A stretch of DNA of 64,000 nucleotides from Phyto melanocephala (Eukaryota; Arthropoda; Insecta; Diptera; Rhinophoridae). The DNA lies in NCBI GenBank assembly GCA_941918925.1, contig OW799233.1, forward strand, positions 71,947,578 to 72,011,577, read 5' to 3'. Under the pieces are notes generated by a model. The model was not told the origin of the DNA, searched no databases, and was given only the letters and a program-made list of their open reading frames with translations. Positions 21,357 through 61,232 of this stretch are shown here, one piece after another. The stretch's first letter is position 1. The number at the start of each line of letters is the position of its first letter. Both the position numbers and the translations under genes were made by a program.

Positions 21357-22736
21357 TGTAACGATCCAAACTGGTTTGCCCTAACTCTCATGAGACTATC
21401 GCTACCTATTCTTCCGATCGTGCTCAGGGTTTGGGGTGGTGTTTTTGTCTCACAAAGAGATAGGCTAAGAATCGTTTTATAAAATTAAAAAAGGGAGCTA
21501 AACTTTAATAATAACTAGCAAAAATAAAAAAAAAAATAAATAAAAAAAAATTAAAAATAAAAAAAAAATAAAGTTAAGTCAAACAGAAGATGGTGTCATT
21601 TCCTCTTATTCGAATACCCTCCCAACCATACTATCTTAAAATAATGTGTTGTTAAAATAGCCCTAAAATGATTCCCTAACTATAACGTAGTAACTGTGCA
21701 TAGAACTACAGAAAATTTAGAAAGACATGTTTAAAATATAAAAGTTAATCAACATTTATTAAACAATGAACAATTGAAAATAACATTTTTTCTTTTATGT
21801 TTAATTTTTGTAACAAATTAAAAAAAAAAAAATTATAGTAAACTATAAATAGTGTTGCTAGTTTAGAGATGTAGTGTGATAGTGAGGTGTTATGTATTTA
21901 TTTATTTTAATGTTAGTAACATTAAGTTTTAAAATCTTATGTTAATAACATTTTAATTTTAAAATTTTAAAAAAATTTCAAATAAAATTTGGTGCAACAT
22001 AGAATTTAGACAAAAAAACTTATTATCAAAAACTTAAAATAATATAAAACAAAACTCACCAAAATTTATCCAACGATGACAGCAGGCCTGATGTGATGTT
22101 GAATTTGGTTTTGAAAAATTCGCCGAATATTTTTATTTTTTCTACACAAACATATTATTTTAAATTATGTATGTATGTGTGTATGTATGTATGTATGTAT
22201 GTGTGTATGTATGTATGTATGTATGTCTATCTGAGTAGTTATATTAATGTATAAATCTTTGTGTGTTTAAATGAATATGTGTTTATATTTATACGTAAAA
22301 ATAAATATGTAAATATGTGTTATGTTGTTTATATGTATGTAGGTAAAAATGGCTGAGTATAAGAATAATTGTTGAATTATAAAGAAATGTTCATTAATTA
22401 CACTACTCAGCAGCAAAATCCTCCATTAATTAAAACTATGTGGACTATATGGATTTTAATGCGCTGAACTCAAATTCGTTGTCGGTTTTTTCCATCAGAT
22501 CGGGATTTTTTTTTATGGGCGTGGCAAATTTTTTCCCCTAAATTAGTCAGGTACGGAGACATATTACATCCTAACTCGAGAACCAGTCATCCGATTTTAA
22601 CAACACCAGTAGATGTCTAACAAAATTCTATTTATTTTAGTTGAATTGAGTTTTTCTCTATCTCTTATCGTTTTGGAATTATTCAAAAATTAGTGGAGAA
22701 AAAAAATTTTTTTTGTGCAAAATTCGTAATATTTTT

Positions 22737-23491
22737 ATACCCTTCACCTGTGGTGCACAAGGGTATATATAGCTTTGTCATTCCGTTTGTAATTTCTACA
22801 ATTTTCATTTCCGACCCCATAAAGTATATATTTTCTGAAAGCTTATGAATAGAGGAGTCGATTAAGCCCTGACCGTCTGTCCGTCTGCCCGTCTGTCCGT
22901 GTGTTGGTTGAAATCAACTTTTAGAAGCAACTATATGTTCCTCAGATCTGTATATGGTATCAATCTCTTGGAAATATCCAGGAATGAATCGCTATTGAAA
23001 TTCTGCACAATCGCCCCATAACTTTCTGAGATATGAGCAAAAAACCACGACCACCTCGTTTTTTTTCACAATTACAACAACAACATACATACATAGATAC
23101 ATGTAAAAAACATACCAAACAAAAAAAAATACAAAAAAAAAAAAATATTAAAAATAAGAAAAAAATAATAAAAAAAACTACAAAAAAAAATTTTAAAAAA
23201 ATTTAAAAAAAAATTTAAAAAAATTTTTTAAAAATTTTTCTAAAAAAATTTTTTAAAAAAATTTAAAAAAAATATAAAAAAAAAATTATAAAATATAAAT
23301 ATTATATTAAATAAAATAAAATAAAATTTTTTTGGCTCAGCTGGGATTCGATGCCACATTTATTCTAACGTGTACGTATGCACGTATTTTATATGGGATG
23401 AATGGTGATACAAACAATTGTTATTGCATGACTACACGTTGTGAAGGGTATATAAGATTCGGCACGGCCGAATATAGCACTGTTACTTGTT
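22737..23491 (+). repeat. Dispersed fly repeat with tRNA-like box, copy 1
   Basis: Inserted in the left arm of transposon 1; the other arm shows the uninterrupted sequence. Starts ATACCCTTCACC and ends GGCACGGCCGAATATAGCACTG...TTACTTGT. It has a run of TGTCCGTCTG-type repeats near 22872-22900, long oligo-A sectors, and TGGCTCAGCTGG at 23333 followed at once by GATTCGATGCC. Those resemble the A and B boxes of a tRNA promoter, here joined without the usual spacer. Members also lie at 25899-26656, 44605-45240 and in part 33717-33860. Confidence 0.75.
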
Positions 23492-23968
23492 CAATTTAAA
23501 AATGAAATTAAAAAAATATAAAGCAAGTATTCAACATTTTAAACTTTTTTCTGAAAGCTACTTATCTTAGAAAAAAAAACAATAAACCGTAAAAATCGGT
23601 TAAAAAATGTATATTTTATTGTCAATTTACCGCAGGTACCCAATATTGACCAAATACGTGTAATATAGCAATCAACGTCAGAGTGGGCGCACTAAAGCGC
23701 CTTTTAGTAACAATGAATGACAACTATTTACTTCTATCTATTTTCGAATAGCAAAATCAAATACAAGCAAAAAAATTTTTTAGATTGTAATTTTGTAGCA
23801 ACGCCTCGCATAAAGCACCCACCCTGTCGCCACCCGTATATAACTTTAAATTACAATAAAAAATTACAATATTTACAGCCTCTATATTTTTTATTTTAAA
23901 TAACACAAAATTTTTGTTAATAATTATTAATTTTTATTTAGGAAACATTGTTAAAATAAAAAAGTAGC

Positions 23969-24640
23969 TTAAGCTGTCAATGTTCTTTCTTCCACATCAT
24001 TCAATTTCGTTCTAAAGACCTCGTCCTTCGTAATTTGTCGTATTTGTGGACCTACAAATATGTCTTCTTTTACCTTAGCATCTCTGATTCTAGGAAATTT
24101 GCTCTTAATGTATAGAAAACCTTCACCGTCCTTGTTCATTGTTTTGACAAAATTTTTCATTAGGCCTAGCTTTATATGAAGAGAAGGCAGAAGAGTTTGT
24201 TCTTTTTGATTTAAAGGCTCTTCTGCTGAATTTTTTTCTCCTGAAATAAAATTTACTCTTTTCGGCCAAATTTTAACATTGTAGTGTTTTTCTTTCGCGC
24301 GGCTATCCCATTCACATAAGAAGCAACAAAACTTGGTATATCCACTTTGCAATCCATTTAACATTGCTAAGACTTTCAAATCTGCACATACGTTCCATGA
24401 GTAATGGGAATATAAAAATTTTTTGTAGTATCATCTTCATGCTACAATAGTTTTCTTTCATATTTCTTGCATACGCGAGTGGGACCGATGGAAATTTGTT
24501 GCCATTGTGAAGTAAAACGGCTTTCAAACTTGTCTTGGATGAATCAATAAAAAGTCGCAAATCCTCAGAATTATGACTGAAACACAGTCCATCAGCATTA
24601 TCACAAAATTAATTCGGAAAATAAGGGGCCTGTTCGTAAA
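23969..24640 (-). pseudogene. Unassigned RNase H-fold-like transposase candidate, partial (transposon 1)
   Basis: Two minus-strand frames, 24560-24312 and 24379-23969, meet in a frameshift near 24380. In order they show RLFIDSSKTSLKAVLLHNGN, then (second frame) a CADLKVLAMLNG block, CCFLCEWDSRA (a C-x2-C-type pair), LPSLHIKLGLMKNFVKTM, FPRIRDAKVKEDIF and GPQIRQ. The frame stops at 23969 before the HGERFHQ block seen in transposon 2. I recall this family as uncharacterised proteins scattered in arthropods and Hydra; I do not know a named superfamily. The Asp residues in FIDSS and DLKV are plausible catalytic residues (inference). Confidence 0.7.
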
Positions 24641-25898
24641 TGCATCACATCTCTATTATCGATAGGAAACCCAAAATAACGGAGATAAGCATTTTAAAGT
24701 TAGGTCGCCACATACGTAACAAAATAAATTTGGAGATTTGTTACAAATCCTTGACATTTTGTAATATGAAAGCGTTTGTGGATTCTTTAATTTCTTTATT
24801 TCTTTACACAATAACGAAGAACACTATAAGATATATTTACTGTTGCCGATTTTAACCGCACGATATTCAATATAAAGTGACTTACTTATTGTCCATCAGC
24901 TTCTATACATTACAATAAATACTAGAATCTACCCTAATGTTCTTAATTTGAAATCACAGGTAATTGAAAAATACTGTTATAAATTTTAATTCCAAGAACT
25001 ATGCAAAATACCGTTGTACTTCAGTTCCATTACCTGCTCACCTAACGAAATGTTACATATATCATATGTAAGGCTGGTTGCATTACAATATTGGGTATCT
25101 GCGGTAAATTGACAAAAAAATCTACATTTTTTAACCGATTTTTATGGTTTATGCCTTTTTTTATTTTTAAGATAAGTAGCTCTCAGAAAAAAGTTTAAAA
25201 TGTTGAATATTTGCTTCATATTTTTTTTAATTGAAAAATATTACGAATTTTGCACGAAAAAAAATTTTTTTTCTCTATTAATTTTTAAATAATTCCAAAA
25301 CGATAAGAGATGGAGAAAAATTCTATTCGACTAAAATAAATAGAATTTTGTTACTGGTGTTTTATTTTTGAAAATCGGATGACTGGTTCTCGAGTTAGGA
25401 TGAAATATGTCTCCGTACCTGACTAATTTAGGGGAAAAAATGTTACGCCCATAAAAAAAAATCCCGATCTGATGGAAAAATACCTACAACGGATTTGAGT
25501 TCAGCGCATCAAAATCCATATAGTCCACATAGTTTTAATTAACGAGAAGACAAAAAATAATTTTTTGTAGAGCAGTGTTATTATTATTTTTTGTTTTTTT
25601 TTAACAAATTCAATTTAACACAAAAAAATGTAATGTAACAATACAACCAGAAGCTAATTCGCTGAAATAAAAATTAACAAAATTTATATTTAAAATTAGT
25701 TTAGATATGAGTATAGTTTTAATATGGTGTTGAGCAAAATTTTAAGTTACGTTTAGTTAAACAAAAAAAATAAAAAAAATAATAAATTTTGATCAGAATA
25801 ATATGTAGATCCCAGAATAGAAGGTAAGTTCAGCTCAATCTCGGATAACAACGTTGATTTATAAAAAAAAAGTATTGAAGTTTGATACTATATAATAA

Positions 25899-26656
25899 CA
25901 AGTAAGAGCGCTATATTCGGCCGTGCCGAATCTTATATACCCTTCAGAACGTGTAGTCATGCTATAACAGTAGTTTGTGTCACCATTCATCCCATACATA
26001 CATACATATAAAAACATACATATATAAAAACATTCCATTGTAAAATTATAAATTCACGTATGTATGTTAAAAAAACAAAAAAAAAATAAATTTAAAAAAA
26101 AAATTATTATATATATAATATATATAAAACACAAAAAATAAAAAAAAAAATAAAAAAAAATTAAAAAAATAAAAAATAATAATAAAAATATAAATAATAT
26201 GTTAATTAAAAAATAAAAAAAAAAATAAAAAAAAAAAAATTTTAAAAAAATTAAAAAAAATTTTTTGTTGGCTCAGCTGGGATTTGATGCCACGTTTTCT
26301 CTAACCAGTATACACGTTTGTATGTATGTATGTTGTTTTTGTGAAAAAAAATCGAGGTGGTCGTGGGTTTTTGCTCATATCTCAGTTGTTTATATACCGA
26401 TGTTTCTGATTTTCAATACCGATCTACTCCCGAATATTTCTGATATTTTTATACCTTAACCGGGTCCAACCCATGTCGGTGGGCTTCAAAAAGTTGATTT
26501 CAACATACACACGGACAGACTGACAGAGCTTAATCGACTCCCCTATTCATAAGCTTTCAGAAAATATATACTTTCTGGGGTCGGAAATGAAAATTGTAGA
26601 AATTTCACACGGAATGACAAATCCATATATACCCTTTTTCACTGTGTGAAGGGTAT
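25899..26656 (-). repeat. Dispersed fly repeat with tRNA-like box, copy 2 (internal inversion)
   Basis: Inserted in the solo LTR; copy 1 of the duplication shows the empty site near 14954. It starts CAAGTAAGAGCGCTATATTCGG and ends GAAGGGTAT, thus reversed relative to the member at 22737. The central TGGCTCAGCTGGGATTTGATGCC segment (26269-26292) nevertheless runs forward as in that member, so this segment is inverted relative to its flanks. Oligo-A/T tracts fill the rest. No coding sequence. Confidence 0.75.
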
Positions 26657-27020
26657 AATAAAGGAAGCAATTCCACGTGTATAATATTTCAATGTTACGG
26701 TGAATACCACAATGTCAGTCAGGAAAGCCTTTTTCTTTATCCCTTATTATTCTTCCTCTTATTTATCCTTCCTTTCTTATACATATATGTATGTTCTTTT
26801 CCTTTCTTTATTTTAAACAAAACTATAAATACCAACACTTATATTTTTAAGTTCAAATTATTTTCCATATTTGTTTTATTTTTGAATAAACAAAAAATTT
26901 TGAAATATCAAAAAAAAAATGAAACAATATTTTTAAAAGCTATTATTAGAAATTCATATAATATTATAAAGAACGTAAAACCTACATAACAATTTCAGTT
27001 ACATATAGCCTTCACAACGT

Positions 27021-27036
27021 TGACAGTCAGGCGGCG
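27021..27036 (+). pseudogene. 16-bp piece of the jockey RNase H between two insertions
   Basis: TGACAGTCAGGCGGCG joins upstream LYV (21356) to the downstream ALKALK (28916) as V-D-S-Q-A-A-L-K. It is what remains between the right target duplication of the solo LTR and the left target duplication CGGCG of the next element. The reading frame across all three pieces confirms both insertion sites. Confidence 0.85.
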
Positions 27037-27949
27037 CACAGAGGAGTATTTGGCCTGAAAAGCTGGTCAAAAAGGCAAAACTGAATTTTAAGAAATCTTA
27101 AAAACTAAGTACGCAGCTCGATAGACAACAATATTTTACACTATATTGTAAATTTTGAAGACTTTTAGTTGCGATTTGTAGCTCTGAGACCCTGCTAAAG
27201 TCAGGAAAGTGAAGAAAATTATATGAGATTTAAATGTTTCTTTCGGTTTCTGGATGTTTTTATGATATTTTTTTTAAGGCTAAACAAATAAGGGTTTAAC
27301 AATGATTTTTTTTCGCTGAAAAGTTTGATCAAAAGTTATTTAAAAAAGAAAACAAAATTTTAAATATGTTGAATATTTATGTTGAAACAATTCGTTCAAA
27401 AGCTAAAAACAAAAAAAATTATACACTTTTTTTGCAAAAAAAGAAAAAGAAGAGGTTTTTAAAAACGAGGTTAGCATATCTAAGAATTATGTTTGTTATC
27501 ACAATAAAATTTGAACCTCTAATTTTAGAAACAAAAAAAGTGTGCGCAAGTTTGCGCCATTTTTTTGACGTTTTTTTTAAATTCTTACATTTCTTCTATT
27601 TTTGCTCATCAGGCACTTTTTCTTATAAATTTATATCGTCATTAACTTTTATGTATTTTGAATTATTGATTTCAACTGTTATTTACATAATTTTTAACAC
27701 TTCACAATGTTAATACCTGCCTATAATTATAAATTTGAAAAATTCTTTATTATCGATAATAGTTATTAGGGAATGTCCCACACATCCCCATAAAAGATAT
27801 TTTTATATACCTGTTCTACAAAATATTATTTGTTAAAAAAATAAATATACGTACCTAATAAGAATAATTATTAAAAGCATTAATCACAAAAATAAGTTTA
27901 TAAAAAATAAATACAGGTACATAAAAAATCAGATGGTATCAGGCTACCA

Positions 27950-28175
27950 TCCAATTGTCAGAAGAAGCTGCCGAGGCCAGAAATAAGCACTTACGATTAT
28001 ATCGTACGAATTATTCGAGGAAATTCAGCAGAAGCGATACAAATCGAGGTGTCTTGAATAGGTTATTTCTGAGCAGTGACCCTTTTATAAGTTGCAGTAC
28101 ATAAAGAGAACGGATTAATAAAAAAGCTTTTTCATCAGAAACCATCACAATTCTTCTTCCTGACACCGATAATGC
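27950..28175 (+). pseudogene. Transposase C-terminal remnant in the Transib-like element
   Basis: One frame reads IQLSEEAAEARNKHLRLYR, then NYSRKFSRSDTNRGVLNRL and FLSSDPFI. This is a conserved C-terminal block that I associate, with moderate confidence, with Transib/RAG1-type transposases. It lies in the expected 3' third of the element and points the same way as the element. Stops lie close downstream (near 28090) and no catalytic core is visible. Confidence 0.45.
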
Positions 28176-28374
28176 ATCTAATAAGGATATACGTACGACA
28201 TAATAATTATTAAGGAATTTCTATATGTTTATTACAATTTTCAAAAATGTTTTTTTTTTAATTAGACCGTAAATCAAATGTATGTATGCATGTACATACA
28301 GTCGTCAAGAATGAGTTTAAACCTTTAAAATCAACATTTGTTAATTGAATTTTACTATTTATACCGTCTTTTAT

Positions 28375-28778
28375 TCCTTAGGAATATGGCTTTTGGAATA
28401 ATCTTAAAAAATTAAACTTTTTGGTTTTTTACTTTTTTTTTATTGAAAACAAAAAATTTTATGAATTTTGCAGGAAAAAATTTTTTTTTCGCCATTAAAT
28501 TTTTAATAATTCCAAAATTGTAACAGATAGAAATGAAACGTGTTTAGTTAGCAGAATTTTCCGGTGCATATTTTGATTCTCCTGCTATTAAAATCGGAGA
28601 ACCCGTTTTCAAGTTATGACAAAATATTTTAGGTAACCCAATGATTTTAACCTTTAAAAGAAAATCCTTACGTTTTAGAAAAAAACGGAAAACAGATTTG
28701 AATTAAGGGCATCAAAAACCATATAGTGCACATACTTTTATTTCTAGGGCAGACAACATTTTTTTTTGTTGCGCAGTG
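28375..28778 (+). repeat. One-ended fragment of a long-TIR transposon arm
   Basis: Diverged match to the right arm of transposon 1 (25200-25577): AATTTTGCAGGAAAAAA, AATAATTCCAAAATTG, AAAATCGGA, ATCAAAAACCATATAGTGCACAT, ending TTGCGCAGTG, that is CACTGCGCAA read inward, followed by TAA. Only one end is present. It shows that a third, older lineage of the same CACT-terminus family inserted here. Confidence 0.65.
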
Positions 28779-28910
28779 TAATTTTTTAAAATCTGCTACT
28801 AGACTCTTTATATCATACTACACCTATAACTATCAAAAAATTAAAACTTTTAATTAAAAAAACACGTTTAATAATTTTGGCCAGCTTTTCAGGCCAAATA
28901 CTCCTATGTG

Positions 28911-29522
28911 CGGCGCTCAAAGCCTTGAAGATACATTATGTCAAATCTAGGTTGGTTGAGAAGTGTAGGAGGGCACTCGATAGTATCATGAACCTTTTCG
29001 ATGTCAGACTGTGTTGGGTACCAGGGCACAATGGAATCGTCGGCAATGAAATTGCTGACGAACTTGCGCGCGGTGGATTGGCATTGGTTTCGACGACCGA
29101 AGAGGACATGGTGAGACCTCCGTTAGGATACTATTTTGGGCGTATCAGGGCGTGGGTATCTGGCAGGACCGATATGGCGTGAAGGGACAGAAGAGACTGC
29201 AGGGTGTCAAGGGCTTTATGGCCTAGGTTGAACTCAGCGGACTCTACAGTTCTTCTGGGCCTGGGTAGGGTATGCCTGAGGGCCACTATTGGGGTTTTAA
29301 CAGGGCACTGTCCTGTGAGGGCTAGGAATAGTAAATGGGATCGCGACACTCCGGAATATTGCAGGATGTGTCACTGCCCAAGACTACAGAATCACAGACT
29401 AAAGTGGTTAGGTAAACGATTCCACGATGAGTTGGGTAATGTTTCAAAGTGTAAGCTGGGGAATATTATCGGATTCATCATGGGGATCGGGTGGCTAGTG
29501 AACATGCAGTGGGGCTCGTAAA
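28911..29522 (+). pseudogene. Jockey-type element RNase H C-terminus and Cys-rich tail
   Basis: Continues the domain from 27036: ALKALKIHYVKSRLVEKCR, then RLCWVPGHNGIVGNEIADELA with the conserved HxG and D of RNase H. After a frame break near 29180 it reads CLRATIGVLTGHCPVRARN and CRMCHCPRLQNHRLKW, matching the C-terminal Cys/His motif of such elements, and ends at the stop near 29519. 3' UTR follows, interrupted by a Helitron-like copy; the element ends at 30390 before the second ATACTGGCAACAT (30391-30403). Confidence 0.85.
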
Positions 29523-29563
29523 GAATCTATTTTTCTTTCTTTCTTCTATTTTATTTCCTACTA

Positions 29564-30291
29564 ACTAAAGTGAAACTCTGTCTGTGTGTTAGCTATAGAC
29601 TCCGAAACTGTAAAACCGATCGGACTCAAACTTCGGCAAGTTGTTGTACTCATACCAGGGAGTGTTTATGGGTGGAAAAAAGTGGGCGGGGTCACGCCCA
29701 TAAAAAATTAGTTGTCGTTTTTAGCTACTTGCACTTGACCGATTTTTCTGAAACTTTGCACACATATTCAGCTGTCATGACTATATAATTTTGTGATTAG
29801 AAAAGTAGGCAGGGCCACGCCCATAAAAAAAAATTATAATTTTTAGGTACTTGTACTGGACCGAGTTTTCTGAAACTTTGCACACATATCGAGCTGTCAT
29901 GACTTTACAATTTCGTGATTAAAAGTGGGCAGAGCCACGCCCATAAAAAAAAGTTATCATTTTCAGCTACTTTAACTTCACCGATTTTCCGGGAACTTTG
30001 CACACACATATGGAGCTGTCATGGCTATATATTTTCGTGATTAGAAAAGTGGGTAGGGCCACGCCCATAAAAAAAGTTAGTTTTGAGGTCCTTGCTCTGG
30101 ACCGATTTTTGTGAAACTTTGCACACATATTGAGCTGTCATGACTTTACAATTTCGTGATTAGAAAAGTGGGCAGTGCCACTCCCATTAAAAAAAATTAT
30201 AATTTTTACCTTTTTGCACTTGATATTCAATTTAAATTCTGAATGCATTTTTATTTATTAAGGTGTAGCAACGCGCGCCGGGCTTTTCTAT
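29564..30291 (+). mobile_element. Helitron-like element, second copy (opposite strand)
   Basis: Reverse-complement relative of 13592-14462. The 5' TC end is lost (starts at TAAAGTGAAACTC) and the 3' end reads GCGCGCCGGGCTTTTCTAT, with a changed CTAG. Five ~122-bp internal units are visible near 29685, 29811, 29931, 30055 and 30175, each with a GGC(C/A)ACGCCCATAAAA core. It lies in the 3' UTR of the jockey-type element. Confidence 0.8.
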
Positions 30292-30390
30292 CTTTAATAT
30301 ATAAAAGGGTAACGTAATGGACCTTATTGGTCTCCGAGTGTGGGTGTAGGAGGCAGATACTGCTTTCTGCATCCCCCTTTCCTACCTACC

Positions 30391-30503
30391 ATACTGGCAA
30401 CATTTGGTTTCAACAGGACGGTGCTACGTGCCACACAGCCGAAGCTACACTTTTTTTGTATAGCATTTTCAAAACAAAAAAAAGTTATTTGGCGGACCCT
30501 CTA
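30391..30503 (+). pseudogene. Mariner-like transposase fragment beyond the jockey insertion
   Basis: After the second ATACTGGCAACAT the mariner frame resumes as WFQQDGATCHTAEATL, the segment that directly follows the break at 21179. It carries the QDG...H motif around the second catalytic Asp. It is fused after about 50 bp to the terminal repeat, so a large internal deletion removed the rest. Confidence 0.8.
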
Positions 30504-31179
30504 TAAAACACTATCGTCCACGCAAGCCACTGCAGTATGTGAAAAGGAAATCATACCATTAAATCTGGATTTTTCTGCGTTATTAACTATTAAGCCAAAT
30601 TGCATCTTTAAACATGATTTCACACATATGTCCGGCCAACGATCGATATTCACCACATTAATATCATCTTACACAAGCCTCGGAAATGTGTCGAATTTAT
30701 CAACGCAACAGTTTTGAAGAATCCAATCCAAGGCAACTAACTTTTCAACGCCAATATCGGACCAGTATGCACCACAACTCCAAGAACTAATACACATGCA
30801 GAACTATCTAAAGGCAATCTAGAAACAACTAAATAAGTCAAGATTTCTTCAAACACCGGAACTCATTAACGCGAGTAGCCAACATCTTTACGCAGTTAGC
30901 TACACGGTGCTCGTTTTCTCCGCCATGCCGCTACAGCACTCACAAAAGAGTTGATCAGGAAATCGTTACGCCAATTCCTTGGCCAAGATCCATAGATATT
31001 GACGTCATAAACACCTGACAATTCATCAAGAAGATAGTTGTGTTGATACACAAAATAGCAGTAAGCATATAATTAACATACACTGCGATTCATATTTCAA
31101 TACAGCTTATTAATTCACGTCCATTTAGCTTTAACTAGCCAAACTCAACATTTGTGACGAGGTTCAATGCGCGGGAGAA
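30504..31179 (+). pseudogene. Envelope C-terminus and polypurine tract of the BEL element
   Basis: Beyond the mariner right end the sequence has an env-like C-terminal tail in several frames: Cys-containing short motifs near 30530-30600, a conserved-looking VEFINATVLKNPIQGN near 30690-30735, and a hydrophobic stretch near 30900-30940. A purine-rich GCGCGGGAGAA at 31169-31179 lies directly before TGTTCAG, as expected for the polypurine tract and LTR start. The env assignment of the middle part is tentative. Confidence 0.5.
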
Positions 31180-31304
31180 TGTTCAGTATCGCAAAGGGTT
31201 AATTTACTAAACATAATCCACTTATTTTGTTTATTGCACAATTGCATTTGCTAACAATGCATAATATATGTATACATAGGTCAAGAATTAAATGTGTCAT
31301 TGGC
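31180..31304 (+). mobile_element. Start of the BEL 3' LTR
   Basis: TGTTCAGTATCGCAAAGG begins right after the polypurine tract. The LTR of the other BEL element, at 43724 on the minus strand, also begins TGTTCAG next to a purine tract. Only about 125 bp can be assigned before the hAT-like element starts, and I cannot see the LTR end. Confidence 0.55.
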
Positions 31305-32139
31305 CGCTTAGTCGAAGGTCACACACGACGATTTTAATTGCCCAACTTTTTCCATTTTTTCTTTTGAACTTGCTTTTATGTTCACACACGACGATTTCTT
31401 TGGCGATTTTTCTGTTTTGGTTAGCTGTTATTTTCTTACAATTTGTCATTTGTGCCCAGCGTTGTCATATTCATGATTTTGTCATATTTTTAAAGATTTT
31501 TTTTGCTAAAATATGATTTACGATTTTTTCCCCCAATATGATTTTTATTTTTAGAAATTTTTTTTTTGTTTGTTTTAAGTTGTAGATAGGAAACATAATT
31601 TTTCTACAATTCTTATCAACAATCAATTTTTAAACCAATAAAGTTTTATATCAGCTTGTCACAGGTCTATTAAAAACAGGTCGAACCCTATCTGTGTTTT
31701 TAAAGAATATTCTCAACATAATAAACAAAATTAACATAATTTCTTAAACCACATCCTCTCAAATACAAAGAATTTATGATGAAATGCAATGTCTTTATCT
31801 TAAAATTTTAGATAATTTTATAAAAACAAATTACGTTAACATCAATTTATTTAATGAACTTGATTTTTAAATTGTTTCGTTTACAAAACGAAGATATTTA
31901 TTTGGGCGTGTTGGTAAAACAAAAAATTTCCAATCTTAAACTTGGAGAAAATAAAAAATTTTTGAAAATTGTACTTCATTTTACATTGAGTTGTGTAAGA
32001 AAATACTGAAACAATTTGATTTTAACCATAATTATTTTAAAGAATTTTTTTTTTCAATATTTTGTCTTGACCCTTTAAAATAAATTAATAGAAAAGTAGC
32101 TTCTATAACAGGTTTAATACAAAATTTTTAAAATTTATT

Positions 32140-32490
32140 CAATTGATGAAAATGATGTTCAAAACTTAGAAGACGAGTTTAGAGAACTACGTCTTCTCCA
32201 CTTTGACGAACACTTTACAAAATTAGATAATCTAAGTTGTGAAGAATTTTGGTCAGAAGTCTCAAAAATAACTCGAGCTGACAAAATCTTAGCTTTTTTG
32301 ACCCTGTCAAAATTTGTTAAAACCCTAATATATCTTCCAATTTCTTCTGAAAATGTTGAACGAATATTTTAGGTTTTAAATTTAAATAAAACAAAATATA
32401 GAAATAGATTAGATTACAGCACTCTTAAGGGTATATTATATACAAAAGAATATTTAAACTTAAACAATATTTATGTTATAATTTAAAAGT
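32140..32490 (+). pseudogene. hAT transposase C-terminal dimerisation domain remnant
   Basis: One frame with one internal stop reads DEFRELRLLHFDEHFTKLD, then FWSEVSKITRADKILAFLTL, LIYLPISSENVERIF, a stop, then VLNLNKTKYRNRLDYSTLKG and LYTKEYLN. The P-x-S-x-E-N-V-E-R-I-F box and the following Lys/Arg-Asn-Arg-Leu are hallmarks of the hAT C-terminal dimerisation region. The N-terminal BED finger and catalytic core are not recognisable upstream. Confidence 0.75.
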
Positions 32491-33383
32491 AGATCAAGAT
32501 ATAACTAAAAATATAAAATCTTTTCTGTATTATAATAATGATGATTCCTAAAATACTTTAATTCATATGTAATTGTTAAATGTATGATTGTTTTTTATAT
32601 TAAAACATTCGTTTTTTATGTTTCTACATTTCGAAAGATAGATATGCAATTTGAATATATAAATATACTACAGAGCATCTGTCAATTTGATTTTATTCAC
32701 AAGTTGCTATATAAATATGTATATTTATTTAAAACAGTTTTCTAAACAAATTTTTATTGTTTTTTTTGCGATTGTAATGAAATGTTTGAATTAAAATAAT
32801 TTGATGATTTTCTTCTTTTTTTTTTGCTCTAAGTTATGATTTTTGCTCGGCGCACAATTGGGACGAACGACGAATTTTTCGTTGCGAATATTCGTCTTAG
32901 AAAATAAAACACATTTGTGTATATGAAAATGCACACAAACAGTGCGTCGACTAAAATTCGTCATGCGCAACGAACTCTGCGATAGGTTTATTTCTATTTC
33001 TTACGCCGACGAATTGCATTTGGTACAGAGTAACCATTTTTCTTTGATTTGTTTTTTATTTTTTTATTAAATAATGATATTTTATACTTAAAGAATTATT
33101 TTCACTTTTTATTTGTTGCATATAATAAACTTAATGTATTTTTAATGATATATTTATATTTTTAATTGTATTTTTTTAAATTAATATTTTTTTTCAATTA
33201 GTGCTTCTTTTTTATGAAATATGGTTACTCTATCAGCTGCTACATGTAAACAATAACTAAATACATTTGAAGCAAATAAAATTATCAATGCAAATTTATG
33301 CAATTTTTTAAAAAATAAATATATAAAAGAAATTATCATCGAAGAGGTACCTGCAGAAAAATTAATGTTTGTGTAATCTTGCA

Positions 33384-33669
33384 TCCAAACATTAGAAAAA
33401 TGTACAGAAAAAAACTGAAATTTGGGAAAGAATTGGTAGTTTGTTAAATTTACCCGGTAAGTAGAAATTCAAGTTACTTTGAAGCATTTTTAAATCTTTT
33501 TGTATGCACATAAACTGAAATTTTTAGGTGATTCATGCAAAAAACGTTGGCGAGGACTTCGTGACACATATAAACGACATAAACGAGCTGCTCAACTTGC
33601 CTCCGGTAGTGGTGCACTAAGTCCGGCAAAAAAAATGGAAGTACGTAAAGTCGATGCATTTTTTTGATA
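33384..33669 (+). pseudogene. MADF-domain protein, partial, two exons
   Basis: Exon 1 ends EIWERIGSLLNLP-G; a 71-bp intron (33457-33527) with GTAAGT and TTTTTAG borders follows; exon 2 reads DSCKKRWRGLRDTYKRHKRA then a Ser/Gly-rich stretch, PAKKM and a terminal KVDAFF before a stop at about 33667. W...IG..L..P...C.KRWR.LRD.Y.R is the signature of MADF (Adf-1/Myb-SANT-like) DNA-binding domains. The N-terminal helix upstream of 33384 is interrupted by a stop, so the gene is partial. The frame stays in phase across the intron. Confidence 0.65.
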
Positions 33670-33716
33670 AATATAAGGATTTCTGACCGTATGTGTATAC
33701 CTAAAACTAAGTTTTT

Positions 33717-33860
33717 TATACCCTTCACCATGGGCAGTATCATTTCAGTTGTAATTTCTACAATATGCATTTGCGACCCCATAATATATATATTTTTGAA
33801 AATCTTGTGACTGTGGAAGTCGATTGAGCGATGTCCGTCTATCCATGTGTTTATATAAAT
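33717..33860 (+). repeat. Relic of the dispersed fly repeat
   Basis: TTATACCCTTCACCATGGGC, TAATTTCTACAATATGCATTTGCGACCCCATAA and CGATTGAGCGATGTCCGTCT follow the order of the member at 22737, but diverged and cut short. Confidence 0.6.
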
Positions 33861-34478
33861 CACTTTTTTAATGTTAATTATTTTAATAATTTGTACAAAG
33901 CGCAAAATTCTTTGATTAATATTATTTCATTTATTTATTTTTTTTTATAATTTTACACAATTTGAAATGACGTACACAGTTGTTATTATTCGTTCTAAAT
34001 GTGTTTCAGTTGACGAATTTACGCAACGAATTTCAACAGTCGAATTCGTCGTGTTGTGCGAAATTCGTCGTTCGTCCCAGTTGTGTTTAGAGCTTTTCTC
34101 TCCAAAGCTTCTGGCAACGCTGCTTTAGCCGTAAATAACAATAAGAAAAATAAAAACATACATAAAATAATATAATTGATTTTTAATAACGCTTTTATTT
34201 AAAATATTTTTACTATTTTTTATTTTTAAATATTTTAAACGTTTAATTTGTGACGTGTTTTATTCCAATTTTAAATTACTTACACGCCAAGATGCGAAAC
34301 ACCGAATGAAAAGAATGTCAAATATTAAAAAAAAAATGCTTCAAATAGCCGAGTACCGGCGATTATTTTTCCCTTCGCTTTCTCCTCACCTCAAACGGTA
34401 AAAACATCTATAAACTCAAGAATTGCCCAACTATAATCGTCGTGTGTGACCATCGACTTATAGACGTTAACTAAAATT

Positions 34479-37235
34479 GAGGCGCCCAGCGCCAAAACGG
34501 CCTAACCCTCTTTTTAAAAAAAATCAAACTGACTATGCTGATATAACCGGAACCTTTTGAAATAAATATTAAAAAAGTCCCTATTGCATAGTATTACACT
34601 AGGTTATACTACCTGCTAAAAACTGTTTTTCCTCTATGCAAAGTTAAAAAAAATGTGGATGCCATAATGGCCTAAGCCACTTAGGTCAAATCGAATCCTA
34701 GAAATAAAAAATATGTGTGGGTTAGGCCAAAAACGCATGTTACGTTTAAATTTTTTAAAAATCAACTTTCTTTTTATATTCTGTGCTATTATTGTAATTT
34801 GCACTAGTCTGTGTAGGCACTGCATTTCTTGTTGTTTGTGTTTTCATGTTTTTTCGAAGTGCGTTATCAGTTTTTTAATTGAAAAAGTATTAGCAAGAAA
34901 AAATGAATAGTACGTGCATAAACATGTCTGATGCTGACTCGATGAGTTTACAAGACTTCGAAAATTCTGGATCGGAGTACGTCCCAACAGCAAGGTCATC
35001 AATTTCATCGGGCTCTTCCGAAGATACGTGGCCTGGGCCATCGGTACTTGCGGCAACAGAATCCCAGATCGGAATAACAGAAAATGATAGCAAGTCAGCT
35101 GAACTAGAGATCGACGTTGAAAGCAGCAATGAATTGAAAATATCTACTAGAAAACGGATTGCCAAAAAATCTAACTGGAAAAAACACGTAAGTAAAGTTC
35201 AGAGAAATTCCGGAAAATCTTATAAAACTGTTGAAGGAGTTATGAAGCCAGCCAAAACACTTAATGCACTTGAATGTCCATGTCCGTTAAAATGCCATCA
35301 GCATTTCAGTGAAAATAATTTGCGAAGTATTTTTGAAAATTTTTATAAAATTGGTGATCATGATTTGCAAAATGCTTATATATGTGGACAAATTGCAGTA
35401 ATTGAAACAAGAAGATCTTATAAGAAGTCTATTGGCGAAAGCCGAAGATCAAGTACAAGAATTTACAAACTTCCTGGAGTAAAAAATCTCGGAATGAATG
35501 TCTGCAAAAGATATTTTAAGCAGATCTTACAAATAACCGATGGTCGTATTACACGTGCACTTAATCATAGAGCACCTGGAAGTGTCACAACTACACCAAA
35601 ATTGGACCAAAGAGGAAGACACCCACCTCATAATAAGACCAGCGTTGAAGCTACAGAAATCGTGAAAGAATTTGTCAATAAATTTCCGAGATATAGCTCC
35701 CACTATTCAAGAAATAAGAATATTCAAAGAGAATTTCTCGCACCTACCTTAAACATATCGATTATGTACAAGCTATATCGTGGAACTGTAGAAATGGGCA
35801 AAGTTGTATCTAAATTCGTTTTCACCAAAATCCAATTTCCGACAGCTGCAAAAAATGTGATTCTTTTAAAGTAAAAATCGAAGCCACAGGTGATCCTTCT
35901 GAAAGGAAAAGGATTACGAGCGAAAGAGATTTGCATCACCGAAAAGCTGAATCAGCTAGAACTGGGATGCAATTGGACTCGCAACTTAACAAGGAAGAAT
36001 ATGCAGTTATAGCATTCGATCTTATGAAAACTCTGCCGACACCAGTCATTTCCACAGGGGTAGCATACTACAAAAGACAGCTATGGACCTATTGTCTTGG
36101 TATTCATGACCTTATCACTAACAAGTCATTTATGTATACCTGGAATGAGGGAATAGCTTCACGTGGCCCAAAGGAAATAGGGTCTTGCATTATGCATTAC
36201 GTGAAAGCCAATGTCAAATGTAAGAAGTTAATAATGTATAGCGATCAATGTGGTGGCCAAAACCGGAACATAAGAATGAGCAGTATTTGCACATACATGG
36301 TCAATAATTCGACCTTTCCGGTGAAACAGATAGATCACAAATTTTTAGTATCTGGCCACTCATTCCTACCATGCGATCAAGATTTTGGTCTCATAGAAAA
36401 GGAAAAAAAATATTATCAGGACATTTTTACGCCTGATGATTGGGATTGTGTAATCATCACGGCAAAAAAAAGGGAACCATTTCACTTGGTAAAGATGACG
36501 GCAGATGATATTAAAAGCATATCCTTAATCGAAAAACTAGTGACAAACAGAAAAATCTCCGCAGACAAGACTTCAAAAGTTGAATGGCTTAAGATTCTGT
36601 GGCTTCGATTCCAAAATGTGAAGTCATTTATAATTCAATTCAAATATTCAAATAACATAGATGTTTTATTTGAAGAAGTTGATATTTCAAAGAGGAACTC
36701 CAGTAAGTTTGTAAATTTTGAATTAAAACCGCTTTATCCTGGAGGACGATTCATTGAAGCTGCAAAGTTTAAGGATTTACAGGAACTCATAGAGTTCATA
36801 CCTCCTATAAAGCATGCATTTTACAATAATTTAAAAACAAATTCGAGAGCCGAAGAAGAAGATATTCAGGAAGAAGACGACTAATTATTATTATTAATTT
36901 ATATTATTTATTATTTTACTATTTATCTGAAGAAATTTTTTATGTTTTAATAAATGGAGCCAAAATGGCCTAACCCTCAGTTCCTATCAATATATTTTTT
37001 TTAAATGGATTCCAAAATGGCCTACCCCACTTTAATTTTTGTAATAACTATTCAAAACAGTCTTTATCTAAGTTAAATAAGACCTAATGATTAACCTAAA
37101 ACAAATATTACAACTAATATTTATTTACGATTAATAAAAAAATAATACAAATATTTTAAAAACTTATTTTCTTTTAATTTCGTTTTTCTCAGAACCATTT
37201 TTTTGGGCTTAGGCCGTTTTGGCGCTGAGCGCCTC
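34479..37235 (+). mobile_element. Sola-like DNA transposon, complete, TSD AATT
   Basis: Ends GAGGCGCCCAGCGCCAAAAC (34479) and, read inward from 37235, GAGGCGCTCAGCGCCAAAAC form a ~27-bp inverted repeat with one mismatch. AATT at 34475-34478 and 37236-37239 is the 4-bp duplication. Length 2757 bp. A GGCCTAA/GGCCTAC motif recurs near both ends (34499, 34667, 34719 reversed, 36969, 37018, 37211 reversed), likely transposase binding sites. It encodes one transposase gene with a single frameshift. Four-base duplications and the protein type suggest the Sola superfamily. Confidence 0.85.
34903..36884 (+). pseudogene. Sola-like DDE transposase with one frameshift
   Basis: Two long frames, 34903-35874 (323 codons) and 35931-36884 (317 codons), overlap in homology near 35817-35860, where a one-base shift separates them; downstream frame reading open through the gap shows C-x2-C followed by ERDLHHRKAESAR. 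The first part is acidic at the N-terminus, then basic, with a Cys-rich LECPCPLKCHQHF motif and KNLGMNVCKRYF. The second has FDLMKTLPTPV (likely first Asp), YKRQLWTYCLGIHD, MYSDQCGGQNRN (second Asp), DHKFLVSGHSFLPCDQD and LIEKEKKYYQ (Glu), and an acidic tail. Otherwise intact, so inactivation looks recent. Alternative: programmed frameshift, less likely. Confidence 0.8.
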
Positions 37236-37466
37236 AATTGTGATATGAAACGTAGGCAATTAATTTTACAATCAATATTAAACATTTTCAAATTCTGAAA
37301 TTTTTTAATTTTTATTATTATGATTAATTGTTTAGTACATAAGCAAGAAAAAATAAAGTTGACTGACACCGACTACAAGGTTTGGCTGATTTTTTTAATT
37401 ACGTCGGTGTCTTTTAAATTCCAAGTGTTTGAAAGAGCATTTTGGTTTGTAAAAAAAAAACATAGT
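37236..37466. other. AT-rich non-coding stretch between Sola-like element and hairpin MITE
   Basis: Flank of the Sola-like element after its AATT duplication. No gene, repeat or splice-like signal that I can support. Confidence 0.4.
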
Positions 37467-37716
37467 AGGGTAAATAACCCTTCGTTGCATACAGATCATG
37501 CAAATGTTGTAGATCTTGCAGGTCTAGTATATATATTCTTAAGTTTGCAACAACACAAAAACAATATACACTAAAATTACATTTCCCACACAAGCACATA
37601 TTTCCAATACTAAAAACAGTTGGAAATTTTTAAAGCAACGTTTGCAATAGAATATATATGTATGACGTGCAAGATCTGCAACATTTGCATCATGTTTACA
37701 ACGAAGGGTGATTTCC
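37467..37716. repeat. Hairpin MITE (~250 bp)
   Basis: The left arm (ACCCTTCGTTGCATACAG..., then CAAATGTTGTAGATCTTGCA) and the right arm (TGCAAGATCTGCAACATTTG...ACAACGAAGGGT) are inverted over about 75 bp with a ~100-bp loop. It could fold into one long hairpin, as short non-autonomous DNA elements do. No target duplication identified. Confidence 0.65.
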
Positions 37717-37778
37717 GCACAAATACCAAATATGTAAAATAATAATAGAAACATTTTTCTTAATCATAATAAACATTA

Positions 37779-37779
37779 T

Positions 37780-37831
<52 letters not shown>

Positions 37832-37850
37832 AATATATATATAATGTATT
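37779..37850. repeat. (TA)n microsatellite
   Basis: Near-continuous TATATA run with a few C/G interruptions. The flanking 37851-38168 is AT-rich without gene features apart from the intron side of the exon that follows. Confidence 0.9.
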
Positions 37851-38168
37851 TTTAAATTTTCAATAAATAAACGTAATAAGAAAAACTTTATACATATAAA
37901 TATTACTTTGCAATGGTTTTGCGTTAAGTTCATTTGAATTGATAATATTAAAAAAAACTTTTACTTCACAACCCTTATTAATAATCATTTTAATTAAATA
38001 TGTGTTGTAATTATAACAATCATTTTTGTTAATTAAAGACGTGCCAGTTTATGTTATTACTTGACTATTAACAATTAAGATACAAAACTTGTATTTACAA
38101 AATCTGTTGCTGATTGAATTTTAACTAAACCTTCAATTGCATTAACGAAAAACCCTTACCACCCTTAC

Positions 38169-38346
38169 CATTTGATATAACCATATTTGCTTGTAAGCCT
38201 GGGTCGTCAGGCATTAGCCTAATACCTACACCCATTGGTCCTTCATGTACATTAAGAAAATGACCAACTCCATGTCCAGTGCCATGTCCGTAATCCAAGC
38301 CAATGTCCCAAAGAGATTTTCGGGCTATTGTGTCTAAAACTTGTCC
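38169..38346 (-). CDS. ApepP: Xaa-Pro aminopeptidase (M24B) internal exon
   Basis: The only host-type gene piece in the window. The minus strand reads GQVLDTIARKSLWDIGLDY, then GHGTGHGVGHFLNVHEGP and MGVGIRLMPDDPGLQANMVISN, 59 codons plus one base with no stop. GHGTGHGVG...HEGP is the metal-binding core of the cytosolic proline-specific aminopeptidase that removes N-terminal residues before proline; the first His of GHGTGH and the Glu of HEGP fit metal/catalytic roles. The acceptor is TTTTTATAG before GGACAA and the donor is G|GTAAGG, leaving phase 1. The expected next residues (EPG...) are not in the adjacent sequence. Flanking exons are not seen, so the gene must have very long introns or this is a stray copy. 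A retrocopy is excluded by the splice sites. Confidence 0.8.
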
Positions 38347-39439
38347 CTATAAAAAGAAAATACAAGTAATAAAATATTATAATTTTTAATTTGTATTATT
38401 TAAACATAAATAAATTTAAATTTTATGATTTTTTTTATTCTTTTCGATAAAGAACTAACTTCCACATGTTGGAATATTTTATTATATTTTTATTATATTC
38501 TTTGTTGTGAATGTTGAACCATAAAAGAAACGATGAACTTTGATTTACAGTTAATTACACTATGCTAGTTAAAAAAACAGACAAGCCGGGCACCTAGCGT
38601 TTTAACATAATTCGGGTACGCTGAATCGAGTGGTGCCCGAGGTTTTTTAAGATTGGCTCTGGTTTTCGAGATATACCGTTATTTCGAAAATGGAGGAGGT
38701 TGCACAACATATGTTCGCGTAATTCAAAAACGCTTTAGCTTATTGAAAAAAACTTAAAAAACCGAAATTCCGCAATAAAATTTCCTTTAAGAAAAATAAA
38801 ACTTCTTTCTAATATCCGCAGTCGTTTTAGAAACATAATTTTTTTTTTGAAAAAAATTAATTTTTTTACCAAAATTTCGAAATTTTTGTTTTTAAAAATT
38901 CAGCTAGGCTTCTAATTTTTTGCAGAAATATAAAAAACGAAGCTGATAACAAAACAAGCCGTAAATGTTAGCAACTTTTGATTTTATTCACAAAAGTCGA
39001 CCAATTTTAATTAATTTAAGAATTTAATAAAACGCAAAACCCCTAAGGGATGGTGATAAAGGGAAAGTATTATTTGAGAAAATGTTAAGAACAAAAAACA
39101 TTGGAGGTCGGTCATACATTTTATCCCCCTAGGAGTGAATCCTAGGCCTTAGAAAGAAATGATGGGTATGAAAAATAAAATTGCGCTGGTCATTTGGCCC
39201 GTCTAGAGGTATCTCAGGCGCTGCAGGTGCAAAATTTAAGGCTAGAGTTCTACGCGTATAAAAAACAAAGTTCCAAAAAAAATAAGCTGTTAATGATTAA
39301 AGTCTGTCTACAACTTTTGATTTTTTCAGAAAAGATGAAATTTTTTAATTTTTTATAATAACCAAACTAAAAAATTTTTGTTGTTAAGTAGCTAAAGTTA
39401 AAGTTTTTATTTAGAAATGTATTCTTCTTTCTCCTGCAG

Positions 39440-40619
39440 ATTCCAACAAATATCCCCTAATAGCGAATCAAGTTATTTGCCGCTATACCAGTGTCCGAGC
39501 CTGGCCGTTACTTGGTGAAATCTCTCGCCATGTTCATCAGACTCGGCTGGTGATTGTTCATTAAATTTTTCGGCATGGTAATGCAAAAAATGTATTTTCA
39601 ATGGCATTCTAACGTTTAAGTTTTTAAATGCGGTCAGCATATTTTTGATTAAAATTCACCAGTTTTAATACATTTTCTATTACTGATTTCACACAATTCC
39701 AGGCCAATAGCTCGATATCATTCAATGCAACCTCAAATTCATGGTCCTTCATAAGACGAATGTCCGGTCCATTAAGAGTTACACATTCCACATTATGATA
39801 TTAAATATAAATCTAATTTAATAAAGTAGTTAGAGTTCATACCTTTTTTTACTTTCATGCCGCTTAATCGTGGAAAAATTCGGTGCAATTCGGTAAAAGC
39901 AACACCATCTGGGCTCAATGCTTTTATAAGATTTTTTACAATACCCAGTTTGATGTGGAGTAGAGGAAACAAAATCTTTTTCATCGGCACAAGTGGTAAT
40001 TCAATAACATTGTTTCTATGCAATCTGCTTTCCTCACGTAAAGTCCAGTCCCGTTTATTTTACTGGCCGCCATCGAGACGCGTATTCCATAAGCACATAA
40101 AGCACATATTTTTAGTATAGCCCAATTGCATGCCTCTTAAATGTGCTACCACTTTTAAATCTCTGCATATTTTTCACTTGTGGTCTTTATATTTAATTAA
40201 CTGCATTATTTTTTCATTGATGCGTATGTCTCTTTAGTATTTGTGCTTAGTGCTATCGGAATATGACTTTTTAAATTAGTGACATGTAGCAAAACTGCTT
40301 TTAAGCTACTTTTGGAAGAATCAATAAATAAGCGCCAATCTCCAGGATTATATTCATTTTGCATTGTTAAAACCAAGCCGCGGATGTCAGTACAATACGC
40401 GATAGAATTATTCTCAATAGATTTTAAAAAAGTCGTAAAGCGTCTATGGCGATTGTATATTTGTACACCTGGTGCTAAAATATTAGCTCGTTTTAACTCT
40501 TTTGCCAAGAGAATGCTCTGTCTTGGAGATAATTTTAGACGCCGTACCATTATATCCAGACGATATTGCATGATCTCATTGTGACTGCATGGAACCGTGA
40601 TACATGACGGTTGATACAT
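39440..40619 (-). pseudogene. Unassigned RNase H-fold-like transposase candidate (transposon 2)
   Basis: The fuller member of the family. The minus-strand frame 40619-40206 gives an N-terminal region (MVRRLKLSPRQSILLAKELK, then NILAPGVQIYNRHRRF) and DWRLFIDSSKSSLKAVLLH. After a break: CRDLKVVAHLRGMQLGYTKN, CFMCLW, PLLHIKLGIVKNLIKALS, FPRLSGMKVKKG. Then GPDIRLMKD and near 39500-39560 SDEHGERFHQVTARLGHWYS. Asp in FIDSS, Asp in RDLKV and Glu in HGERFHQ are a possible D-D-E set (inference). About 70 bp inserted after KVKKG (39773-39845, begins GTATGA) may be an intron or an insertion. Several stops: dead copy. Confidence 0.7.
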
Positions 40620-40970
40620 TTATACCATATATAACACTTAAAGAAAAATATGATTCATACAAGGTACTTCAGTACTTCTTCAGTTTCAGTAGTGATTTTA
40701 CGTCGACTTGGCATATTTTTATATTTACCACACACATAACAAAAGTAATTAAACTTTTTACATGCCTCCATCTTAGATATTTCAATGTAACTGATTGGAT
40801 TCAAGACTTTCAAAGGCTTTTAACTTCACTAATCACTTTCGCAAGCACTTTCCATATGACAGTGAAGGGGTTTAGGAACTCTTATTTATACTGTAATTGT
40901 TTTAATCAAAGTACCTGTCGAGACCTTCATGACCATGTTTTTAAAAAAAACCAGGACGAATAATATTTCT

Positions 40971-42441
40971 ACCTGTTCCAGTGCCCATGTTCTGTAACTC
41001 TCGCTACGAGAAACTTTTCACTTGAAACATGTAAATTGGTACAGAAATACAACAAATCGAAACAAACAGCTGTTTTTTCTCACTGTACTGTTTCTGTAAC
41101 TATTCATGCGAGAAATACCTGTCACGTAAGAAAAATACTCGTAAGCCATTAAAAAAGTGTTTCTGTAAAGTTTTCAGGCGAGAACTTCTCACTTTGAACA
41201 GTCAAAATAAGTCACAAACAAAAAGACCGCGAGATTGCAAAAACTTTGAGCCAAAAAATATAAAAAGTCAAAAATCAGTGACAAAAACATGGAAAATGTA
41301 AAGTTTAAATGTTTTTTTTTATTATTAATGCATACATATGTATGTATTAATATTATAAATTTGTTATCGTTAAGAAAAATATGCGGGTTTCAAAGCAACA
41401 AAAAGGAAAATTAGATATTGAGTTTAAACTATCGAACCTTCTATAAAATATTTTGTAATTGAAATAATGTTTTTTTTTTGTGCTTTAAACTTTTATGTAT
41501 GTAAAAGAAAGAAATTAGGAAATGAAAAATTAATTACTTTAAATTTGAGGTTATAAATTTTCTTACTACGGGAAATAATTTATGGTAACTATCTTTGTTT
41601 AATTTACAAAAGTTTTTATATTTCTAAAAAAGATAGATTTTTTTTTATATTGATTATATTTTTACAATCATCAAAGTCATTTAAAGTTTAAAAAAACTAA
41701 CTAACTAAATAAAATTGCTAAATTCTTTTCATTTATTTTTTTTTATTTCAATTTCGAAATAATTTTTATTATTTTTTTATTCCTTTTTTATTTAGACCTT
41801 AAATATTTACAAAAAGTGTTTATTGTTTAACCAAATTGTTTAATTTGTATGTCGTGTGTCCTAAACAAAAATCCTAAATACACCACCATCATCATTATGT
41901 TTTTCATAAAAAGGAAACAATGTTACCAATGTCTTGGAAAGTGAAGGCAAATTTGTATTCCTTACACATTTTCTCATAAAAGGTGCCTTCAAGCAGAACC
42001 ATTGCTGATGATCTGCTTAAGCGATATAGTTCCTTAAATCAATTCTCCGGCATTTCAAAAGAGTCTGTTGAATCGCACAACCTTTTGCGATGAATCCGCA
42101 ACATATTCCTTTCATCATCCCCAACCGCTCTAACTAAAGCTGCATTGTACATTTTATTTCTTTCTTCTGCACTTATTTTTTTAAACACTTTTATTTTCTA
42201 AATTTTATATGTATTATTATTTCCGCACTTCTAAAGTTTATTTTTTTCTTCTTCTTCTTCTTATAATTAAGTATAATTTTTGATAGCTCTAACGTAACAA
42301 CGTAATCATAAATGGTATTTTTCGCCATGAGTTACAGATACACTTTTTTCTCACACATCGAGAAACGGTGGGATATTTTGTTTCATGACTTTTCGATGCG
42401 AGAAGTTCTCACTAAAGTTACAGAACATGGGTACAGGTATA
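40971..42441 (-). mobile_element. Harbinger-like element nested in transposon 2
   Basis: Inverted ends ACCTGTTCCAGTGCCCATGTTC (left) and ACCTGTACCCATGTTC (read inward from the right). A subterminal motif TTCTGTAACT...GCGAGAA...TCTCAC recurs near both ends (about 40985, 41090, 41160, 42335, 42385). A transposase N-terminal remnant lies at 42010-42190. Target duplications not resolved. The rest (41300-41900, 42190-42290) is AT-rich and non-coding. Confidence 0.6.
42010..42190 (-). pseudogene. PIF/Harbinger transposase N-terminal remnant
   Basis: The minus strand reads, with one stop and a frame change, ERNKMYNAALVRAVG, then DSFEMPENxFKELYRLSRSS and MVLLEG. The F-x-P-(E/D)-x-x-F-x-x-x-(Y/F)-R-L-S block is typical of HARBI1-type transposases just before their catalytic domain. 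No DDE core found downstream. Confidence 0.55.
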
Positions 42442-43142
42442 ACAATAGAATATGTTATTTAAGTTTTTTACAAGACCGATTAGTGCGGTTTTGACTGCAC
42501 AATAAAAGACCGATTTGCATGGTTTTGTAAGCACAATAAAATACAAAGATGTAAGCATTTATGACTTTATTTCTTAATTCTAAGAATTTTTTAATCGGTA
42601 ACTTCACTTCTTAGGGGGGCTCCCATACAAATATTGCGTTATATGAAATTCTTAAATTAACTAAAATTTGTCGACTTTTGTGAATAGAATCAAAAATTGC
42701 TAACAGATTTTAAAGATTTATGGCTTGTTTTGTTATCAGCTTCGTTTTTTATATTTCTGCAAAAAATTAGAAGCCTAGCTGCATTTTTTGAATTTTTAAA
42801 AAACAAAAATTTCGAAATTTTTTTTTTACAAAAATAAAAATATGTTTCTAAAACGACTGCGGATATTTTACTTTTCTTAAAGGAAATTTTATTGCGGAAT
42901 TTCGGTTTTTTAAGTTTTTTCAATAAGCTAAAGCGTTTTTGAGTTACGCGAACATATGTTGTGCAACCTCCTCAATTTTCGAAATAACGGTATATCTCGA
43001 AAACCAGAGCCATTCTTAAAAAACCGTGGGCACCACTGAATTCAGCGTACCCGAATTATGTTAAAACGCCAGGTGTCCAGCTTGTCACGAAAAAAAAGTG
43101 TAAATTTCTTGCACAGTGTTATGTTACTAGCTTAAAGTCTTA

Positions 43143-59306: not shown

Positions 59307-59423
59307 TTTTCTATTTCTTAGCTCCTCCTGAATATCAAAGCTAGATTTAAAATCCTTATACTGGTATTTCAGAGCTTCACAGAAGTCATTCCAACTTATA
59401 TTTTCAGCCTGTTTATGGTATCT

Positions 59424-61227: not shown

Positions 61228-61232
61228 ATTTA

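Follow-up and report, generated by a model that had tools for sequence, protein, structure and literature searches.

Two transposons with matching ends

The window analysed here, a 64,000-nucleotide stretch of the genome of the rhinophorid fly Phyto melanocephala (contig OW799233.1, positions 71,947,578 to 72,011,577 of the forward strand), holds two degraded DNA transposons, hereafter elements 1 and 2 (Table 1), and the remains of a related protein in each. Both elements open with CACT and close with AGTG, are flanked by A-TTA on the left and TTA-T on the right, and carry inverted repeats of ~0.48–0.5 kb. Element 1 reads AATTA/CACTACTC...GAGCAGTG/TTATT across its boundaries at 22401 and 25577, and element 2 reads AATTA/CACTATGC...GCACAGTG/TTATG across 38558 and 43118. 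The left arm of element 1 is interrupted by a foreign repeat and resumes at 23506–23510. Its outer part, 22426–22736, pairs with 25234–25542 at 286 identities in 319 columns (95% without gaps), and its inner part, 23510–23648, pairs with 25086–25227 at 129 of 142 (93% without gaps). These alignments score 474 and 218, against maxima of 29 and 33 in 50 shuffles each. In element 2, the pairing of 38580–39037 with 42634–43086 (410/479 identical; 95% without gaps) scores 672, against a maximum of 30 in 50 shuffles. The outermost 20–35 bp of the arms pair less well in both elements, CACT excepted. A 100-nucleotide part of the foreign repeat (23392–23491) has an inverted copy, 93% identical, at 25897–25996, to the right of element 1.

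The arms of the two elements are dissimilar, although the encoded proteins are related. When the four arms were compared with the window by blastn, no cross-match between elements 1 and 2 appeared at E values up to 1e-3. Aligned locally over their first ~340 bp, the two left arms have in common at best a stretch of 26 A/T-rich columns; its score of 32 is higher than that of any of 100 single-base shuffles (25 at most). The original prediction, that two transposons with ~0.5-kb inverted repeats, CACT ends and TTA duplications lie here with very different arm sequences, is confirmed by the ends, the arm alignments, the shuffled controls and the lack of a blastn cross-match.

A third, orphan arm resembles the right arm of element 1, with 66% identity over 481 columns in the blastn comparison of arms; no partner arm was recognised in the window. 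Just to its right, at 28790–29182, Pfam RNase_H matches with 29 bits (cut-off 25.8), an RNase H domain that probably belongs to a long interspersed nuclear element (LINE)-like element.

Table 1 Positions of elements 1 and 2, their parts and the orphan arm within the window
Feature	Position	Strand	Remarks
Element 1	22401..25577	-	degraded, probably Chapaev3-type transposon, protein on minus strand; ~2.41 kb without later insertion
Element 1 left TTA target site duplication	22398..22400	.	A precedes
Element 1 left terminal inverted repeat	22401..23648	+	~480 bp, split by insertion 22737–23505
Foreign repeat within element 1 left arm	22737..23505	.	~769 bp, later insertion
Element 1 probable transposase remains	23969..24721	-	CYVCG 24707–24721; RLFIDSSK 24534–24557; DLKV 24371–24382; CFLC 24314–24325; LHIKLG 24164–24181
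Element 1 right terminal inverted repeat	25086..25577	-	492 bp
Element 1 right TTA target site duplication	25578..25580	.	T follows
Orphan third arm	28327..28778	-	right end of another element of the element 1 kind, ends GCGCAGTG adjoining TAAT
Element 2	38558..43118	-	degraded, probably Chapaev3-type transposon, protein on minus strand; ~3.1 kb without nested element
Element 2 left TTA target site duplication	38555..38557	.	A precedes
Element 2 left terminal inverted repeat	38558..39060	+	~480–500 bp
Element 2 probable transposase remains	39422..40771	-	CYVCG 40727–40741; RLFIDSSK 40311–40334 (first D); DLKV 40150–40161 (second D); CFMC 40093–40104; LHIKLG 39943–39960; HFLHYH, H(4)H, 39575–39592; SDEHGERFHQ 39512–39541 (E)
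Apparent nested element inside element 2	40978..42437	.	22-nt inverted repeat CCWGTRCCCATGTTCTGTAACT
Element 2 right terminal inverted repeat	42610..43118	-	~480–510 bp
Element 2 right TTA target site duplication	43119..43121	.	T follows

A shared and broken coding sequence

A motif search of the minus strand of the window finds RLFIDSSK, DLKV and LHIKLG in both elements and nowhere else, and SDEHGERFHQ in element 2 only, as had been predicted. Further motifs are CYVCG, present in both elements, CFLC or CFMC following DLKV, and HFLHYH in element 2. Ten homologous proteins, aligned to the window by tblastn, match the minus strand of both elements. In element 2 most of the protein aligns, spread over several frames and interrupted by stops and frameshifts, but ~110–125 residues of the N-terminal part are missing, the gap starting after the first 30–45. 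In element 1 only the middle of the protein aligns; its N-terminal CYVCG is visible by motif, and neither tblastn with the ten homologues nor the motif search recovered the C-terminal part that would hold H(4)H and the catalytic E. With broken frames, nested insertions and no C-terminus in element 1, both copies are inactive and neither can encode an intact transposase. Among the ten proteins tested, the closest to element 2 is P0001, at 92% and 86% in two stretches of 140 residues, whereas element 1 is nearer to P0043 and P0071 (54–60%) than to P0001 (37–50%). Because the nearest homologues differ, we regard the elements as two different families of one protein group. Pfam gave no match for three of four transposase pieces from the window, and two sub-threshold matches for the fourth.

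Homologues, catalytic residues and predicted fold

Two homologue searches returned 1129 and 2385 matches. No Pfam family is recorded for any of the 120 matches listed from each, and where the sources name them the listed proteins are 'uncharacterized', 'hypothetical' or 'unnamed'. The closest named homologues suggest a fly or other insect as host. Literature searches on motif words from the proteins yielded no paper. From the 120 homologues listed in the first search we hand-picked alignments A1 (19 members) and A2 (61 members of 539–595 residues; P0015, P0031, P0072, P0109 and P0117, within 530–610 residues, were left out); the 120 listed in the second have a median length of 560 residues. 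The contigs that carry the homologues are short (93 of 117 are 2–3 kb; median 2433 bp), a length that only hints at that of the repeat unit. Of the homologues of 530–610 residues, 138 of 148 show the ordered motifs C(2)C, LH and H(4)H together with D, D and E. Element 2 holds this whole set and element 1 holds all of it up to LH. A short in-frame insert, intron-like by eye, lies late in P0002 and P0004 and apparently in element 2 too.

Three acidic residues, D257, D311 and E508 in the numbering of homologue P0009, are invariant in 61/61 aligned homologues and very probably form the catalytic D-D-E set, as originally suggested. E511 and E521 are likewise invariant and were set aside as the catalytic Glu, E508 being the residue that opens a late core helix (508–523) just after H(4)H. 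We prefer E508 because E962 of RAG1 opens a late helix in the same way, the likeness being one of helix position.

The predicted fold of a homologue matches the RNase H-like core of RAG1/Transib type. Against RAG1 (541–623 residues) and BbRAGL (553), 361–374 residues align at 11–14% identity, and a viral structure library gave no match at E ≤ 0.001. Together with the invariant D, D and E, this fold upholds the proposal that the shared protein is the DDE-type transposase of CACT-ended transposons.

Probable assignment to the Chapaev3 group

The elements are dead copies and very probably new members of an already known transposon group. Chapaev3 goes back to Repbase Reports of 2007/2008, as cited in PMC4411706. 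In the parts of PMC4079192 used here, Chapaev3 elements end in CAC/GTG, and their transposases bear C(2)C, LH and H(4)H; every Chapaev3 element that the authors examined has a TWA duplication preceded by A and followed by T, and for Chapaev at large the same text gives duplications of 3 to 4 bp. Its examples include Merrow (2451 bp, 78+484 residues) and Garfield (2289 bp, 78+478 residues). Both elements in the window have 5′-CAC...GTG-3′ ends and lie within A-TTA/TTA-T, and the orphan end shows TAA-T on its one side. The median of 560 residues among the homologues listed in the second search falls within the 556–562 of Garfield and Merrow, the window copies themselves being broken, and the RNase H-like fold of the homologue is the one expected of the CMC and RAG1/Transib groups. 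Because ends, TWA duplication, A/T context, protein size and motifs agree with the published descriptions, we read elements 1 and 2 as inactive, diverged copies of two Chapaev3 families, and their shared protein as a Chapaev3 transposase, with a probability of roughly 0.92.

Several points weigh against this assignment. It compares the elements with published descriptions of Chapaev3 and not with reference proteins, and the portions of those descriptions used give no inverted-repeat length against which the 0.5-kb arms could be set. The motif-spacing pattern fails in 10/148 homologues. The fold comes from a homologue 50% identical to the element 2 protein, the window copies being too damaged for modelling. 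The N-terminus matches RAG1 modestly (E 0.056 for the best single stretch), and a full-length family profile run against PDB sequences has RAG1 as its best match at E 0.84. Scans of viral contigs with alignment A1 and with P0071, for a bracovirus copy of Chapaev3, returned no encoding contig.

The original prediction went further and took the family to be unassigned and the transposase of a CACT superfamily of its own, a claim that is not supported here. Such an undescribed superfamily of CACT-ended transposons, with a transposase lineage beside Chapaev3, would suit the absence of any Pfam or NCBIfam family for the homologues: the matches of P0009 and of the window pieces are absent or below cut-off, and in NCBIfam P0009 has no match while six families are each hit, weakly, by a single one of 19 members. 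The uninformative names of the listed homologues point the same way, as does a Chapaev3 link drawn from descriptions and not from alignment with a reference protein. Ends, duplication, A/T context, protein length, length of the homologous contigs and motifs nevertheless all fit published Chapaev3, as does, weakly, the N-terminal domain, and we consider a new superfamily improbable. The outcome that the prediction had named as its refutation, a match to an already named superfamily with the same termini, has come about with Chapaev3, with the reservation that the match is to published descriptions and not to an aligned reference protein.

Placing the elements not in Chapaev3 but in classical Chapaev, EnSpm/CACTA or Transib, the other groups of CMC or RAG type considered, is less probable still, at a few chances in a hundred. 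Transib duplicates 5 bp and classical Chapaev 4 bp; here only 3 bp are duplicated, and the flanks, ATTA and TTAT, have TTA in common and no matching 4-bp word in register. RAG1, Transib and CMC have this type of catalytic core in common, and CA..TG ends are common to most of these groups according to the part of PMC12730594 consulted, whereas a 3-bp TWA within A-TWA-T is the Chapaev3 pattern. The definitions of CMC motifs used here are those of PMC4079192 and PMC12730594. A Pfam search with the 61 homologues at E values up to 1 shows no EnSpm or Harbinger domain among the matches listed (25 of 30 families). PIF/Harbinger, considered on the TWA duplication alone, was also set aside, the fold going to RAG1. 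Some homologues are predicted as genes in chromosome-scale assemblies, which might suggest a host gene, or a domesticated protein, that lies near inverted repeats by coincidence. The duplications and multiple copies contradict this reading, and it was dismissed: two complete elements surround degraded frames, a third end lies between them, the repeats score far above shuffled controls and most homologue contigs have the size of a Chapaev3 element.

The Chapaev3 assignment gives a large set of animal proteins, so far without a name or called 'uncharacterized', a place in a named group of transposons and would help to tidy gene annotation.

The N-terminal domain

Chapaev3 carries a zinc domain, Chapa, found also at the RAG1 N-terminus, according to the part of PMC4411706 used. 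An N-terminal profile of the present family (alignment A3) gave three matches among PDB sequences, the best being a RAG1 N-terminal chain (E 0.0033 overall), and Pfam RAG1_imp_bd matches 7/18 N-terminal fragments weakly, at E 0.086 or worse; these matches favour a Chapa domain without settling the point. In Foldseek, the top three matches of the N-terminal 135 residues of P0009 have the ZAD fold, and all five VIA entries listed are likewise ZAD. The domain therefore looks like ZAD, through which insect ZAD zinc-finger factors dimerise, the likeness in sequence being weak. Two CxxC pairs and the fold are shared with ZAD (zf-AD, PF07776); the differences are a score of 25.1 bits for the P0009 fragment, below the Pfam cut-off of 28, and further conserved Cys and His residues after the CxxC pairs in the transposase (H87, C92, C95 and H124).

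We tentatively suggest, at slightly worse than even odds, that the insect ZAD is a homologue of the N-terminal zinc domain of Chapaev3, and with it of the RAG1 N-terminal region. If so, a subunit-pairing module of a transposase, a dimerisation domain of insect transcription factors and the RAG1 N-terminus would have a common origin, and descent could have run from such transposons to insect ZADs or in the opposite direction. This offers a concrete lead on the origin of both domains.

A possible mechanism

In RAG1 and Transib, end pairing, nicking beside CAC and hairpin formation are established. By analogy, an intact transposase of the present group would consist of an N-terminal zinc-binding domain of Chapa type followed by an RNase H-fold core of RAG1/Transib type, the core bearing the catalytic D, D and E and a C(2)C...H(4)H zinc site. 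We infer that a dimer would synapse the two long inverted repeats, cut beside CAC/GTG through nicking and hairpin formation and join the 3′ ends across a TWA target within A-TWA-T; catalysis, zinc binding, dimerisation, the hairpin step and the role of the arms all belong to this inference. Joining with such a 3-bp stagger would produce the TTA duplications seen.

Other repeats in the window

A transposon-like unit at 34475–37239 has an inverted repeat of ~31–34 nucleotides (TTGAGGCGC...) flanking frames at 34894–36884, which match DUF7869 just below threshold (25.2 against 26 bits); its target duplication is indistinct. Exact 300-nucleotide direct repeats, ~9.05–9.07 kb apart, occur in 52182–63936 (within 52182–54873 and 61233–63936) and flank a frame of 1162 residues (55345–58833) that is gag-pol-like by eye, so that 52182–63936 is probably a young long terminal repeat retrotransposon. 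A frame of 405 residues at 50969–52186 resembles, by eye, the envelope-type proteins of endogenous retroelements in insects.

Comparison with known systems

The closest counterparts by description are Merrow, Garfield and Conan in the passages of PMC4079192 used, which share CAC/GTG ends, a 3-bp TWA between A and T and animal hosts including insects. Merrow and Garfield further have transposases of 556–562 residues, bearing C(2)C, LH and H(4)H, in full-length elements of 2.3–2.5 kb. The present elements differ from these in the ~3.1 kb of element 2 without its nested element, in the broken state of both copies, in the late insert and perhaps in their ~0.5-kb arms. Chapaev3 has also been annotated in another fly, the blowfly Calliphora vicina, where the parts of PMC3630058 used describe short copies of Chapaev3-1_CV and Chapaev3-2_CV, the longest of 1075 bp and 302 bp, and describe no ends; these are known here by description only.

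At a greater distance, RAG1, ProtoRAG and Transib share with the present proteins an RNase H-fold core with D, D and E and C(2)C...H(4)H, together with a modestly RAG1-like N-terminus. They differ in the longer chains of RAG1 (541–623 residues) and in the 5-bp duplication of Transib. Chapaev3 is a distant cousin of the RAG1 antibody-gene recombinase.
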